This document shows positions 27,554 through 34,430 of a stretch of DNA of 34,553 bases, piece after piece (position 1 is the first letter of the stretch; each line of letters opens with the position of its first letter). The DNA comes from Rhodospirillales bacterium. Lineage in GTDB: Bacteria > Pseudomonadota > Alphaproteobacteria > ATCC43930 > CGMCC-115725. The notes below the pieces were generated by a model that was given only the letters and a program-made list of their open reading frames with translations, was not told the DNA's origin and did no database searches. Where the stretch lies: NCBI GenBank assembly GCA_028288725.1, contig JAQGIC010000041.1, positions 1 to 34,553 of the forward strand, written 5' to 3'. The position numbers and the translations under genes were made by a program.

Positions 27554-27958
27554 TCACCGATACCGGAACGAGCCCTGGCCCATGGCGAGCAGTTTTCCGG
27601 CCTCGTCGCGCACCTCGGCCCGGGCGAAGAAGATCTTGCGGCCGCCGCCGCTGACCGTCGCCACGGTGGTCAGCCGCCCGGCGAGCGCCGGGGCCACGAA
27701 ACTGGTCATGAGGTCGAGCGTCACGCATAGGCGCGCGCCGTCGGTCGCCTCGGTCCAGGTGCCGGCATAGCCGCAGGCGACGTCGAGCAGGGTCATCAGC
27801 ACGCCGCCATGGACGACGCCGCTGCGGTTCAGATGATCGCCGGTTACGTCGAGTTCGACCGTGGCCCGGTCGAGGACCCAGTCGACGAGCCGGATGCCCA
27901 GCGCCTGATTGAACGCCGACGGCCGGGCGACGATGGTCTCTCTGGTCTCACCGGTCAT
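27554..27958 (-). CDS. PaaI-type hot-dog thioesterase
   Basis: A 134-residue protein of the hot-dog fold. The central motif HGGVLMTLLDVACGYAG is the PaaI/YbgC-like helix with the conserved His-Gly-Gly. VTLDLMTSFVAPALAGRL and ARAEVRDEAGKLLAMGQGSF make up the sheet. Such enzymes hydrolyse acyl-CoA or aryl-CoA thioesters, and the preferred substrate is not evident. ATG 27958 with GGAG nine bases upstream is preferred over the ATG at 27979. It is convergent with cyanase and divergent from the hydrolase-OsmC gene. Confidence 0.88.
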   Translation of the reverse strand: MTGETRETIVARPSAFNQALGIRLVDWVLDRATVELDVTGDHLNRSGVVHGGVLMTLLDVACGYAGTWTEATDGARLCVTLDLMTSFVAPALAGRLTTVATVSGGGRKIFFARAEVRDEAGKLLAMGQGSFRYR

Positions 27959-28127
27959 CGATCTTCGCTCCGCATCCATTTCTTGGGCGAGGCATCCTCG
28001 CCCACCGGCAGATCAAATGCCATCCCCGCGGGGCGGCGCGACGTCGCTCGATAACCCGATGGACGCGTCCGCCTATTCCATCGATAAATTCCTTCGACGG
28101 ACGCCAACCGCCCAAAGGGGAAAAGCC

Positions 28128-29348
28128 ATGCCGGTCGAACGGTTCGAGTTTCCAAGCGCCGAGGGCCATCCGCTGGCCGCCCGCCTGGACCTGCCCGAGG
28201 GGCCCGTGCGGGCCTACGCGCTGTTCGCCCATTGCTTCACCTGCGGCAAGGACATCCATGTCGCGGCCCGGATCGCGGCGGCCCTGGCCCAGCGCGGCAT
28301 CGCCACCGTGCGCTTCGATTTCACCGGCCTGGGCGGCAGCGGCGGCGATTTCGCCAACAGCGATTTCAGCTCCAACATCGCCGATCTTCGGGCGGCGCTG
28401 GCCCATATGCGCGACAAGAACCAACCGGCCGGCCTGATGATCGGCCATAGCCTGGGCGGGGCCGCGGTCCTGGCCGTGGCCGGCGAAGCTCCGGAAGTGC
28501 GCGCGGTCGCGGTGATCGCGGCGCCGTTCGATGTCGCCCATATCGTCGAACAGTTCCATGACCAGGTCGGCGAGATCGAGGCCGCCGGCGAGGCCAGGGT
28601 CAATCTGGCCGGACGCCCCTTCACCATCCGCCGCAGCTTCCTCGACGATGCCCGCGCCCAGGATCAGAAGCAGCGCATCACCCATTTGGGCCGCCCGCTG
28701 CTGGTGCTGCATTCGCCCGTCGACCGGATCGTCGATGTCGATAATGCGCGCCAGATTTTCACCGCCGCGAGGCATCCCAAAAGCTTCGTCTCGCTCGATC
28801 GGGCCGACCATCTGCTGACCCGTCCCGAGGACGCGCGCTATGCGGCAGCCCTGATCGCCGAATGGGCGGCGCGCTACCTGCCCGACGAGGCCCCGACCTC
28901 CCCCGCAGCGCCAACCGAGCTCGGCCTGGTCGTGGTCGAGGAAACCGGCCACGGTACGCTGGAACAGCGCATCGCCGCCGGTAGCCATACCTATCTGGCC
29001 GACGAGCCGGTCGCGGTCGGCGGCGGCGGCGCCGGACCCGGCCCCTATGATTTCCTGCTGTCGGCGCTCGGATCCTGCACCTCGATGACGCTCCGGCTCT
29101 ATGCCCAGCGCAAGCAATTGCCGCTGACGCGCATCCGCGTCGCCCTGCGCCACCGCCGGGTGCATGTCGAGGATTGCGTCGGCTGCGAAACCAGGGACGC
29201 CCGGCTGGAGGTGATCGAGCGCGAGATCACGCTGACCGGCGACCTCGACGCGGCGACCCGTGCCCGCCTGATGGAGATCGCCGACAAATGCCCGGTGCAT
29301 CGCACGCTGATGTCGAAGCTCGAGATCCGGACGGTGGAGGTGTCCTGA
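28128..29348 (+). CDS. Alpha/beta hydrolase fused to OsmC-like domain
   Basis: A 406-residue two-domain protein. The first part (about 1-255) is an alpha/beta hydrolase with oxyanion region FAHCFTCGKD, nucleophile elbow MIGHSLGGAA (Ser108), Asp in VLHSPVDRIVDVD and His in DRADHLLT. The second part (about 265-406) is OsmC-like, with LSALGSCTSMTLRLYA (Cys317) and DKCPVHRTLMS (Cys388), the peroxidatic and resolving cysteine arrangement. A second CxxC-like pair is present in EDCVGCETRDA. AAAGGGG precedes ATG 28128; the longer upstream frame is not coding. This fusion recurs in Proteobacteria, and its substrate is unknown, with a detoxifying/peroxide role plausible. Confidence 0.92.
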   Translation: MPVERFEFPSAEGHPLAARLDLPEGPVRAYALFAHCFTCGKDIHVAARIAAALAQRGIATVRFDFTGLGGSGGDFANSDFSSNIADLRAALAHMRDKNQPAGLMIGHSLGGAAVLAVAGEAPEVRAVAVIAAPFDVAHIVEQFHDQVGEIEAAGEARVNLAGRPFTIRRSFLDDARAQDQKQRITHLGRPLLVLHSPVDRIVDVDNARQIFTAARHPKSFVSLDRADHLLTRPEDARYAAALIAEWAARYLPDEAPTSPAAPTELGLVVVEETGHGTLEQRIAAGSHTYLADEPVAVGGGGAGPGPYDFLLSALGSCTSMTLRLYAQRKQLPLTRIRVALRHRRVHVEDCVGCETRDARLEVIEREITLTGDLDAATRARLMEIADKCPVHRTLMSKLEIRTVEVS

Positions 29349-30804: not shown

Positions 30805-32901
30805 GTGAATAAACTCTCGCCCTCCTTCGAACGCCCCTCCGAGACCTGTCCCATGCCCTCCAAGCACGCCATCACCACCGAAGATCTTTGGGCCCTGAAG
30901 CGGATCGGCCCCGCCGCCGTCTCGCCCGATGGCCGCTGGGCCTGTGCCGCGGTCACGCGCTACGACATGGAGGGCAACGAGGGATCGAGCCAGCTGTGGC
31001 TGCTGTCGACCGACGGCAAGACCCAGAAGCAGTTGACCCGCGGCAAGTCGGACGGCGAGCCCGTCTGGTCGCCCGACGGCCAATGGATTGCCTTCGTCTC
31101 CAAGCGCGGCGAGGGCAAGGCGGCGGACGAGACCGGCCAGATCTATCTGATCGCGGCCGATGGCGGCGAAGCGCGGCGCCTGACCCAGATCGCGACCGGA
31201 GCATCCGGCCTGCGCTGGTTTCCCGACAGCCGCCGCATCGCCTTTTCATCCTGGGTCTGGCCGGAGCTCGATAGCGAAAAGGCCCAGGCCAGGCGCCTGA
31301 AGGAAGACAAGGACGACAAGGTCACGGCGACGGTGCTCGAGCATAATAATTATCGCTATTGGGACCATTGGCTTCCGCGCGGCCGCCAGCCGCATCTGCA
31401 TGTGGCCGACATTGCGACCGGCAAGACCCGCGACCTGTTCGCCGGCATGAAATTCCATCTGTCGATGCAGGAACCCGGCCCCCATGGCTATGACATCAGC
31501 CCGGACGGCAAGGAAATCGTGTTTTCCTACGATTTCGATCCGGACCCGAAGCTGGGCGCGCCGGACATCGTCGCCCTGGAGCTCAAAAGCGGCAAATGGA
31601 CCAAATTCACCGACGATCGCGGCCATGCCGACGAGGCGCCGCACTATTCGCCGGACGGCAAATGGATCGCCTTCGTGTCGTCCGACATCGGCAAAGCCTA
31701 TAACGAGCAGGCGCGCCTCTGGCTGATCGAGCGGGCGACCGGCAAGGTCACCGGCCTGACCGACAGCTGGGATCGGGGCGTCAATGCCCCGCTGGTCTGG
31801 GCGGCCGATAGCCGGGCGTTGTATTTCACCGCCGAGACCGAGGTGGCCCAGCCGATCTGGCGTCTGGGTCTGGACGACGCGGTGCCGACGGAGCTGATCC
31901 GCGGGCCGGGCCATGGCGGCACCGCCGGCGATCTGCGCCTCAACGCCGACGGCACCACCCTGGTCTATTCGCGCGCGGCCCAAGCCCATCCGCCGACCCT
32001 GCTGGCGGCCGCGATCGACGGCACCGGCGAGCGGCCGATCGAGCGCTTCAACAAGAAGCTGCTGGGCGCGCTGAAACTGGGCGCGTCCCAATCGGTCACG
32101 ATCAAGGGATTCGACGGCAATCCGGTCCAGATGTGGATCCTGACGCCGCCGGATTTCGATGCCGACAAGCCGGGCAAGGCCAAATGGCCGCTGATGCAGG
32201 TCATCCACGGCGGGCCGCACACCTGCTGGAACGACACTTGGCACTGGCGCTGGAACATGCAGCTGTTCGCCGCCGGCGGCTATGTCGTGGCGGCGGTGAA
32301 TTATCACGGCTCGACCGGCTGGGGGCAGCGCTTCGTCTCGTCGATCAACGGCGACCTGGGCCGGCGCGAGCTGGCCGATGTCGAGGCCGGCACCGACCAT
32401 ATGCTGGCGACCGGCTATATCGATCCCGGCCGCGTGGTCGCGACCGGCGGCAGCTATGGCGGCTATATGGTCGCCTACATGAACGGCAACGTGCCGGGCG
32501 ACCGCTACAAGGCCTATGTCTGCCACGCCGGCTGTTTCGACTGGGTCGCGATGATGGGCTCTGACGGCTATTTCTGGATCCAGCCGGAACTGGGCGGTTT
32601 CGCCTGGGAGGACGAGGCGCGGGTCCTGAAGCAGTCGCCGCATCACTATGCCGCCAATTTCGCGACGCCGACCCTGGTGATCCACGGCGAGTTGGACTAC
32701 CGCGTACCCTATTACCAGGGTCTGGCCTATTACAACACGTTGCGCGCCAAGGGCGTGCCGTCGCGCCTCGTGTTCTTCCCGGATGAAAATCACTGGATCT
32801 TGAAGCCGCAGAATTCCGTGCTCTGGTACAAGGAATTCATGGGCTGGTGCGATCGACACACGCTGCCCAAAAAGGCGAAGCGCAAGCAGGACGGGACATG
32901 A
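30805..32901 (+). CDS. S9 family prolyl oligopeptidase-type peptidase
   Basis: A 698-residue enzyme. An N-terminal seven-bladed beta-propeller (repeats such as VWSPDGQWIAFVSKRG and PHYSPDGKWIAFVSSD) precedes a C-terminal alpha/beta hydrolase domain. The catalytic set is GGSYGGYMV (Ser550), GELDYRVP (Asp631) and ENHWI (His663). No signal peptide is obvious, so it is probably cytoplasmic and cleaves small peptides. GTG 30805 has GGAGGG six bases upstream, much better than ATG 30853. The stop overlaps the next start (ATGA), so the following lyase homologue is translationally coupled. Confidence 0.9.
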   Translation: MNKLSPSFERPSETCPMPSKHAITTEDLWALKRIGPAAVSPDGRWACAAVTRYDMEGNEGSSQLWLLSTDGKTQKQLTRGKSDGEPVWSPDGQWIAFVSKRGEGKAADETGQIYLIAADGGEARRLTQIATGASGLRWFPDSRRIAFSSWVWPELDSEKAQARRLKEDKDDKVTATVLEHNNYRYWDHWLPRGRQPHLHVADIATGKTRDLFAGMKFHLSMQEPGPHGYDISPDGKEIVFSYDFDPDPKLGAPDIVALELKSGKWTKFTDDRGHADEAPHYSPDGKWIAFVSSDIGKAYNEQARLWLIERATGKVTGLTDSWDRGVNAPLVWAADSRALYFTAETEVAQPIWRLGLDDAVPTELIRGPGHGGTAGDLRLNADGTTLVYSRAAQAHPPTLLAAAIDGTGERPIERFNKKLLGALKLGASQSVTIKGFDGNPVQMWILTPPDFDADKPGKAKWPLMQVIHGGPHTCWNDTWHWRWNMQLFAAGGYVVAAVNYHGSTGWGQRFVSSINGDLGRRELADVEAGTDHMLATGYIDPGRVVATGGSYGGYMVAYMNGNVPGDRYKAYVCHAGCFDWVAMMGSDGYFWIQPELGGFAWEDEARVLKQSPHHYAANFATPTLVIHGELDYRVPYYQGLAYYNTLRAKGVPSRLVFFPDENHWILKPQNSVLWYKEFMGWCDRHTLPKKAKRKQDGT

Positions 32902-34430
32902 TGCAGCTCGACCTGGACGGCGGCCCCGTCAGCCTGCGCCGGATCGCGGATCTGGCGCGGGGACCGGCCGAGATCCGCCTGTCCGGCGGCGTGCGGGCGC
33001 GGCTCGCCCAGGCCAGGACGGTCGTCGAAAGCTATCTCGCCGACGGTTCGGTGCCGGTCTATGGGCTCAATACCGGCCTCGGCGGCAACGTCAAATATCG
33101 CTTGAAGCCGGAAGAGATCCAGCCGTTTCAGGAGCAGATGATCGTCGGCCGCTGCATCGGCATGGGCCCGCCGCTGGCCGAACCCTTGTGTCGCGCCGTG
33201 CTGGCGGCCCGCATCGTCGGGCTGGCCCAGGGCGGTTCCGGCCTGTCGCCCGCCCTGCTCGACCTGCTGATCGCCATGCTGAAGGCCGGCGTCACGCCGG
33301 TCATCCCGTCCCGGGGTTCGATCGGCGCCGGCGACCTGGGCCTGGTCGCCCATCTGGGCGCGGTCGTGATCGGCCGGGGCGAGGCCTGGTTCGGTGGGAC
33401 GATCCTGCCGGGTGCCGCGGCGCTCGCGGCCGCGGGACTGGCGCCGGCGACGCTTGGCGCCAAGGACGGGCTGGGATTGCTGAACGCGAGCCCGGTCACC
33501 ACGGCCCATGGCGCGCTGACGCTCGCGGCACTGGAAGACCTGCTGCTGCAGGCGGCCGCGACGGCGGCCTTGTCGATGGAGGGCTATGCCGCCAATCCCG
33601 CGATCTTCGACGCGCGCCTGGCGGCGGCACGGCCAGCCGGCGGCCAGGTCGCGGCCACGGCGCTGTTCCGCGCGCTGCTGGCCGACAGCGCGCTCCAGGC
33701 GCCGAATGCCGCCCGCGCGATCCAGGACGCGCTGTCGTTCCGCACGCTGGGACCGATCTTCGGCGTGGCGTTCGCAGCACTCGCCCGGGCCGCGCGCGAA
33801 ATCGAGGTCGAACTGAACGGCGCCGTCGACAATCCGCTGGTGCTGATCGACGACGGCGTGATCCTGTCGACCACCAATTTCCATACACCGGCGATCGCAC
33901 TCGCGTTCGACGCGCTGGCGATCGCGCTCAATCACCTGGCCAGCGCCGGGGTGCAGCGCATCCAGAAGCTGATGACGCCCCATCTCAGTGGCCTGCCGAA
34001 ATATCTCTCGCCGATCGGCGGCGCCAGCAACGGCTTCAACAGCCTGCAAAAGACCGCATCGGCGCTCTATGGCGAGATCCGGCTGAAGGCGGGCCCCGCC
34101 AGCCTGGATGCGGTGCCGGTCTCGGAAATCGTCGAGGACCATGCGCCGCAAAGCCTGCTGACGATATCGAAGTTGGCCGAGCAGATGGATCTCTTCCGCA
34201 TGCTGGTCGCGATCGAGGCCATGGTCGCGGCCCAGGCCGCCGACCTGCGCGGGTTCCACCCGCTGGGCGCCGGATCGGGCCTGATCCATCAGGCGGTCCG
34301 AAGCATCGTGCCGGCGCTGGACACGGACCGCGAGACCGGCCCGGACGCGATGAAGGTGCTGGCGACATTGACGCCGGCGCTGGCGGAGCGACTGAGGCCG
34401 TTGGCACAACCGACCGGGTGCTTGTTCTAG
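32898..34430 (+). CDS. Histidine/phenylalanine ammonia-lyase family homologue lacking the MIO triad
   Basis: A 510-residue protein with the whole HAL/PAL fold. Conserved items are Tyr55 in VYGLNTGLG, Asn196 in GLLNASPVTT, Arg282 in QDALSFRTLG, Asn327-Phe-His329 in TTNFHTPA, and Glu413 in VEDHAPQSL. Where the MIO cofactor should form, family enzymes read GSVGASGDL but this protein reads GSIGAGDLGL (Ala144-Gly145-Asp146), one residue short with no Ser. The reading frame is intact, so it is not an obvious error. It could use other chemistry, be regulatory, or be inactive. AGGACGGG precedes the adjacent ATGs at 32898 and 32901. No hut genes are nearby. Confidence 0.85.
   Translation: MMQLDLDGGPVSLRRIADLARGPAEIRLSGGVRARLAQARTVVESYLADGSVPVYGLNTGLGGNVKYRLKPEEIQPFQEQMIVGRCIGMGPPLAEPLCRAVLAARIVGLAQGGSGLSPALLDLLIAMLKAGVTPVIPSRGSIGAGDLGLVAHLGAVVIGRGEAWFGGTILPGAAALAAAGLAPATLGAKDGLGLLNASPVTTAHGALTLAALEDLLLQAAATAALSMEGYAANPAIFDARLAAARPAGGQVAATALFRALLADSALQAPNAARAIQDALSFRTLGPIFGVAFAALARAAREIEVELNGAVDNPLVLIDDGVILSTTNFHTPAIALAFDALAIALNHLASAGVQRIQKLMTPHLSGLPKYLSPIGGASNGFNSLQKTASALYGEIRLKAGPASLDAVPVSEIVEDHAPQSLLTISKLAEQMDLFRMLVAIEAMVAAQAADLRGFHPLGAGSGLIHQAVRSIVPALDTDRETGPDAMKVLATLTPALAERLRPLAQPTGCLF

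Follow-up and report, generated by a model that had tools for sequence, protein, structure and literature searches.

A histidine ammonia-lyase homologue without its cofactor-forming triad, probably a lyase acting in the manner of ergothionase

What can an enzyme of the histidine ammonia-lyase (HAL) family do when the residues that form its cofactor are gone? This question is raised by a gene near the end of a 34,553-nucleotide stretch of DNA from a Rhodospirillales bacterium (contig JAQGIC010000041.1 of assembly GCA_028288725.1), referred to here as the window. The product of this gene, P0001, lacks the Ala-Ser-Gly triad that gives the 4-methylideneimidazole-5-one (MIO) cofactor. Judged from its sequence, P0001 is part of a bacterial branch in which the means of forming MIO have been lost, and its substrate is probably an unusual derivative of an amino acid, not histidine. 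The gene and its informative positions are as follows.

32898..34430, + strand: P0001, HAL-fold lyase without the MIO triad, 510 aa (open reading frame, Pfam, PDB and profile matches, AlphaFold2 model)
33060..33062, + strand: Tyr55, equivalent to HAL Tyr53 (alignment)
33150..33152, + strand: Arg85, where HAL has His83 (alignment; His in ergothionase and HAL rows)
33315..33335, + strand: GSIGA-GD, site of the lost Ala-Ser-Gly triad, one residue deleted (alignment, DNA letters)
33732..33734, + strand: Leu279, replacing HAL Tyr280 (alignment)
34050..34052, + strand: Lys385, common to ergothionase; Val or Ile in HAL rows (alignment)
34134..34136, + strand: Glu413, equivalent to HAL Glu414 (alignment)

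The reading frame is unbroken over 32898-34430, and its 510-aa product matches Pfam Lyase_aromatic (PF00221) with an E value of 5.6e-128 and 428 bits versus a cut-off of 27.3. Where HAL reads GSVGASGDL, P0001 reads GSIGA-GDL: one residue has dropped out while the frame is kept (DNA 33309-33347). Mapping of Pseudomonas putida HAL onto P0001 pairs Y53 with Tyr55, N195 with Asn196, Q277 with Gln276, R283 with Arg282, F329 with Phe328 (within NFH) and E414 with Glu413; the HAL numbers are those we take to mark the active site, and the letters at those positions were verified in the alignment. The original prediction, made from the DNA letters, had described an intact frame, a missing Ala-Ser-Gly triad and an otherwise largely preserved pocket (Tyr55, Asn196, Arg282, NFH and Glu413), all of which the mapping confirms. 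It had not listed three further pocket changes: HAL His83 is replaced by Arg85, Tyr280 is replaced by Leu279, and Lys stands at 385.

Homologues sharing the gap were listed, as the original prediction had proposed. All 18 aligned members of the P0001 subclade, the 17 others as well as P0001, are one residue short at the triad. They include the closest homologues found, from a Rhodospirillales metagenome-assembled genome (MAG; L003) and Acidisoma (L004), which show ~60% identity and an unchanged motif, as well as an Acetobacteraceae MAG (L005), two relatives of the window's organism (L017/L035 and L018/L036) and 8/8 plasmid loci examined (L038-L045) among 60 matches listed of 854. Treponema denticola ergothionase is one residue short at the same site (SSIGE-GDI). 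As the loss is shared by the whole subclade and by this ergothionase, it is inherited. An ordinary HAL carrying a sequencing or assembly error is thereby refuted, and we give that reading practically no weight: the frame is intact, the same one-residue loss recurs in independent genomes, and the window's own genome holds a separate HutH-like lyase with Ala-Ser-Gly, His83 and Tyr280 that is 58% identical to P. putida HAL.

The pocket changes are shared as well. Arg occupies the HAL His83 position and Leu or Ile the Tyr280 position in 18/18 subclade members, and Lys385 is found in 17/18 (Leu in G074), whereas the HAL rows of the alignment have Ala-Ser-Gly, His83, Tyr280 and, in the Lys385 column, Val or sometimes Ile. 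The HAL Asn195 position varies within the subclade (Asn, Ser, Val or Ala). Loss of the cofactor-forming residues could also mark a pseudoenzyme or a ligand-binding protein without lyase activity. However, Tyr53, Gln277, Arg283 and Glu414 (HAL numbering) are kept in 18/18 members and Phe329 in 17/18 (Tyr in G144), and a passage of PMC13405746 describes as an active enzyme one relative in which the residue is likewise missing, so that we regard this reading as very unlikely.

P0001 differs from HutH in triad, profile score and pocket. It resembles the P. putida enzyme (1gkm/1b8f) in fold, in the counterparts of Tyr53, Asn195, Gln277, Arg283, Phe329 and Glu414, and at 35% identity, but has none of Ala-Ser-Gly, Tyr280 and His83. 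It falls below both NCBIfam HutH cut-offs (376.3 versus 539.15 bits; 390.8 versus 524 bits), and it fails the HutH pocket test, with Arg85 for His83 and Leu279 for Tyr280, as well as the triad test. The MIO-dependent phenylalanine and tyrosine ammonia-lyases (PAL and TAL) and aminomutases share superfamily and fold with P0001; the three PAL/TAL-like rows differ in having the Ala-Ser-Gly triad and Gln at HAL 414, and scores for this group are lower. Five triad-less plasmid copies (L038, L039, L040, L042 and L043) are nevertheless annotated as hutH or histidine ammonia-lyase, and some public genes under these names thus lack the residues that form the cofactor.

The loss, for which the original prediction knew no precedent, has one in ergothionase, which has the same fold and the same missing residue. 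A passage of PMC13405746, citing Maurer et al. 2019, describes ergothionase as working without MIO and yielding trimethylamine. The T. denticola enzyme (6s7j/6s7q) also shares with P0001 Leu at HAL 280, Lys385 and Glu at HAL 414. A single-sequence search of the PDB with P0001 gave as best matches P. putida HAL at E 1.2e-76 and ergothionase 6s7j at E 1.4e-73; a profile built from 11 subclade members placed ergothionase 6s7j first (447.8 bits, with HAL at 395.7), and its alignment to the profile has Leu at 280, Lys at 385 and the missing residue in common with the subclade.

Phylogenetic trees join the two. In an unrooted tree with 15 subclade rows, from which the motif columns, HAL 83, HAL 280 and column 385 were excluded, one branch parts 22 triad-less rows from 11 rows with ASG or ACG (support 100/98). 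When three rows taken as PAL/TAL-like (Gln at HAL 414) served as outgroup and the motif columns were excluded, 20 triad-less rows, 13 from the subclade including P0001 together with ergothionase, formed one clade (99/98); the grouping of subclade and ergothionase depends on this outgroup. In a wider tree that also held L099, L100 and L112, long branches meet, the placement of the divergent triad-less rows L099a, L099b and L100 is unsure, and a single split between triad-less and MIO rows has a support of only 52/79. HAL-family homology, a predicted HAL fold, a triad loss shared with ergothionase in one supported clade and the linked pocket changes (Tyr280 to Leu, and Lys385) are hence established for P0001.

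Could P0001 then be ergothionase itself, turning ergothioneine into thiourocanate and trimethylamine? The common missing residue, Leu at 280, Lys385, Glu413 and the shared clade would all fit, and the genome has one gene of PF10017, the methyltransferase family that contains EgtD, which is weak evidence because the control Escherichia coli matches too. The pockets differ, however: ergothionase has His at HAL 83 and Ser at HAL 195, P0001 has Arg85 and Asn196, and the division is general, with Arg in 18/18 subclade members and His in 4/4 ergothionase-branch rows. The latter include proteins of Polaromonas JS666 (L051), Paracoccus (L052) and Sinorhizobium meliloti (L053), which like P0001 lack the triad and have Leu at 280, but are only 31-34% identical to it. 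P0001 stands in a separate subclade at 31-32% identity to T. denticola ergothionase, and the window's genome holds one urocanase only; no second one, which would have hinted at use of thiourocanate, was found. Identity with ergothionase is therefore quite unlikely. P0001 has in common with that enzyme a clade and, in a predicted model, a HAL fold without the triad; it probably works like ergothionase, but as it differs in a pocket feature of that enzyme it is not classed as one. The ergothionase branch has settings of its own. On a Paracoccus saliphilus plasmid its triad-less lyase (L052:7911-9599) immediately follows a hut operon that includes an ASG-bearing HutH, and on S. meliloti pSymA (L053:7929-9569) an annotated dimethylsulfoniopropionate lyase and an ATP-binding cassette (ABC) transporter are found nearby.

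How, then, might P0001 work? In HAL, MIO converts ammonia, a poor leaving group, into a better one. We consider it reasonably probable, from sequence comparison, that P0001 is an ergothionase-type C-N lyase that does without MIO, expelling a group such as trimethylamine that leaves well already. Its substrate would be an amino-acid derivative whose alpha-nitrogen is a good leaving group from the start, most likely a trimethylammonium betaine. Arg282 and its neighbors would hold the carboxylate, Tyr55 would remove the beta-proton as in HAL, and trimethylamine or an otherwise activated amine would depart to give an alpha,beta-unsaturated acid; MIO would be unnecessary because the leaving group is already good. 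The expectation in the original prediction that P0001 has no ordinary MIO, and hence probably a chemistry other than deamination of His, Phe or Tyr, is supported. Arg85 occupies what we take to be the position that governs substrate choice in HAL and TAL, and an RsTAL His89Phe variant is named in the title of one PDB match. With Arg at such a position the side chain of the substrate is probably unlike that of ergothioneine, which suggests that ergothioneine itself is not the substrate; Arg85 and Glu413 would read this side chain, which is probably not the thione ring of ergothioneine and may be anionic. An MIO-free branch of this kind would reveal the purpose of the cofactor, namely the expulsion of a poorly leaving amine, and with Arg85 at a position of such influence the question of the substrate is directly testable.

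In the window, the gene directly before the lyase is as follows.

30805..32901, + strand: S9 prolyl-oligopeptidase family gene, upstream of the lyase, ATGA overlap

The original prediction had seen a one-base overlap here and proposed that peptidase and lyase are used jointly. The overlap is four bases (ATGA) from the ATG at 32898, and one base only from the second ATG (32901). Partner genes were scanned at 16 of the 17 other subclade loci (L003, L004, L005, L035, L036, L038-L045 and L108-L110), G110 being excluded for its short stretch; flanks were unequal, with only ~1.3 kb upstream in L003 and a contig end at the start of L109. An S9 peptidase stands beside the lyase in 0/16 of these loci, and the partnership was rejected.

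A gene of the ornithine-cyclodeaminase family, by contrast with the peptidase, lies near the lyase in 12/16 of these loci, a count inflated by related Rhizobiaceae loci, and offers a second handle on the pathway. The two genes overlap or are adjacent in L003, L038-L041, L045 and L108; a single gene separates them in L036, L042 and L043, and the distance is ~2 kb in L035 and ~5 kb in L044. Identity to the L036 copy is 62-81% for the cyclodeaminase-family gene, whereas the lyases compared are 34-59% identical to one another. In the ergothionase branch, the Polaromonas L051 cluster likewise holds a copy 73% identical to that of L036, along with a PhnD-like gene. An OpuAC betaine-type binding protein and a PhnD-like protein each occur in 7/16 loci. 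The association of the subclade relatives with a cyclodeaminase-family gene and an ABC transporter is thus established, and in the proposed pathway the transporter would import the substrate and the cyclodeaminase-family enzyme would act alongside the lyase. Two Rhizobium clusters (L042 and L043) have a CoA transferase, a MaoC dehydratase and an SDR beside the lyase, which would suit breakdown of an enoic-acid product.

These surroundings bear on two further readings. The cyclodeaminase-family enzyme might join the lyase in splitting a secondary or N-substituted amine, opine- or metallophore-like for example, in which case the substrate would be no betaine. Three observations are consistent with this: a dipeptide-type binding protein (SBP_bac_5) occurs in L003, L005 and L044 (3/16 loci) and in an operon on contig C109 of the window's genome; an LLM enzyme of the NtaA/DmoA type in L038 scores above cut-off; and the partner scores with the SbnB and EutC families, under their cut-offs. 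Yet a betaine is favored both by the OpuAC transporters in 7/16 loci and by the relationship to a lyase that releases trimethylamine, and we think this reading unlikely. The second is a special case of the proposed trimethylamine-type lyase, in which Arg85 would bind the anionic group of an oxidized or otherwise anionic ergothioneine relative or of another anionic betaine. Arg85 in 18/18 subclade members, LLM monooxygenases in 4/16 loci and genes of the YeiH family (putative sulfate exporters) in 3/16 (L004, L042 and L043), as well as one adjoining the Polaromonas L051 lyase, favor it; an ergothioneine-sulfonate pathway, reportedly published under that title, would offer a concrete candidate for the substrate, as a lead rather than as evidence. 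This special case draws on one residue and loose neighbors, however, and neither of the two YeiH-family genes in the window's genome shares a contig with the lyase; it is possible but doubtful. As core partners, LLM and YeiH genes were rejected at 4/16 and 3/16 loci.

On C109 of the window's own genome, an orthologue of the cyclodeaminase-family gene, with 75% identity to that of L036, heads a set of PhnD-like, SBP_bac_5, two permease and two ATPase genes with no lyase. Nearly the same set surrounds the lyase in L044 and, minus the PhnD-like gene, in L003, and for this reason the peptidase-adjacent lyase looks like a displaced member of a C109-type system.

To see whether lyase and partner travel together, a class-wide sample of 240 genomes was searched with the lyase profile (E 1e-60) and for the partner (E 1e-80). 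The lyase profile hit 90 places in 67/240 genomes; all 90 were inspected, two of them being fragments (in G202 and G110) with no letters at the motif. The subclade lyase is present in five genomes (G000, G126, G110, G074 and G144), spanning five families, and the partner in 13, including 5/5 of those with the subclade lyase. Co-occurrence has a one-sided p of 2e-7, which becomes 3.7e-6 when the window's genome is left out; both values treat the genomes as unrelated.

Several of these results weigh against an MIO-independent lyase of the ergothionase type. Besides Arg85, where ergothionase keeps His, and the single urocanase, lyase and partner are on different contigs in 4/5 genomes, the partner occurs without a counted subclade lyase in 8/13 (G202 among them), and a betaine lyase assigns no particular role to the cyclodeaminase-family enzyme. 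The transporter is of the dipeptide rather than the betaine type in L003, L005, L044 and the C109 operon, and neither type was seen at L004, L035, L045 or L108-L110 in the locus scan. Within the rooted clade the ergothionase branch has a support of 100/99 and the P0001 subclade only 81/90, and a midpoint root on the unrooted tree places the ASG rows beside the P0001 subclade, not ergothionase. Pairwise comparison is undecided overall: P0001 is 35% identical to HAL versus 31-32% to ergothionase, phmmer gives 261.9 versus 251.8 bits, and BLAST reverses the order with 259 versus 274 bits. Nor does structure decide, since VIA-align scores of the AlphaFold2 model are tied (Z 39.2 for ergothionase 6s7j_C and 38.9 for HAL 1gkj). 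This model, a monomer built from nine alignment rows, has a pLDDT of 84.4 and a pTM of 0.87, but its confidence is low next to Tyr55 (56-65) and Glu413 (403-415); active sites of the HAL/PAL family are assembled from several chains.

While the MIO-free principle is already known from ergothionase, no published description of the Arg85 subclade or of the lyase/cyclodeaminase pair turned up in searches of an open-licence library. Tentatively, the subclade may represent an undescribed MIO-independent lyase whose substrate is a betaine different from ergothioneine, perhaps sulfonated or otherwise anionic. It would work with an ABC importer and a dedicated cyclodeaminase-family enzyme in bacteria of soil and plants, hidden under the hutH name.

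As an exclusive partner of the lyase the cyclodeaminase-family gene was rejected, because eight genomes hold it without a counted subclade lyase. By eye, it stands beside an aminotransferase-like gene in L104 (G238) and in L106 (G126, where the lyase is on another contig). In a longer stretch of G202 (L174), a HAL-like frame lacks the motif segment, though by eye it has Arg where HAL has His83, and was not counted; decay, deletion or an assembly fault could each account for the missing stretch.

Triad loss is wider than this subclade and ergothionase. Neither Ala-Ser-Gly nor a near variant is found at 14/90 places, or 15 when the frame without the whole segment is counted, and at least three different forms occur. 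Genomes G125/G161 have, a few kb from a cyclodeaminase-family gene, two tandem HAL-like genes (L099:12042-15106; site LGMDGE or MGMDGE) and one very divergent triad-less HAL-like gene (L100:5277-6842). A separate HAL-like branch from rhizobia, Paracoccus and Streptomyces (11 loci, L006-L016) has GSMGQ-SDMS for the triad and Met at HAL Glu414. A further triad-less type (L123, L137, L157, L161 and L162) reads GSVGY before a gap of three residues and has Tyr in the Lys385 column, and another (L168/L176 and L169) reads GSIGCA-DI, with His at HAL 83 and Lys at 385. Elsewhere in the window, one frame (27909-29348) has a C-terminal OsmC domain joined to an S33-like serine-hydrolase domain.

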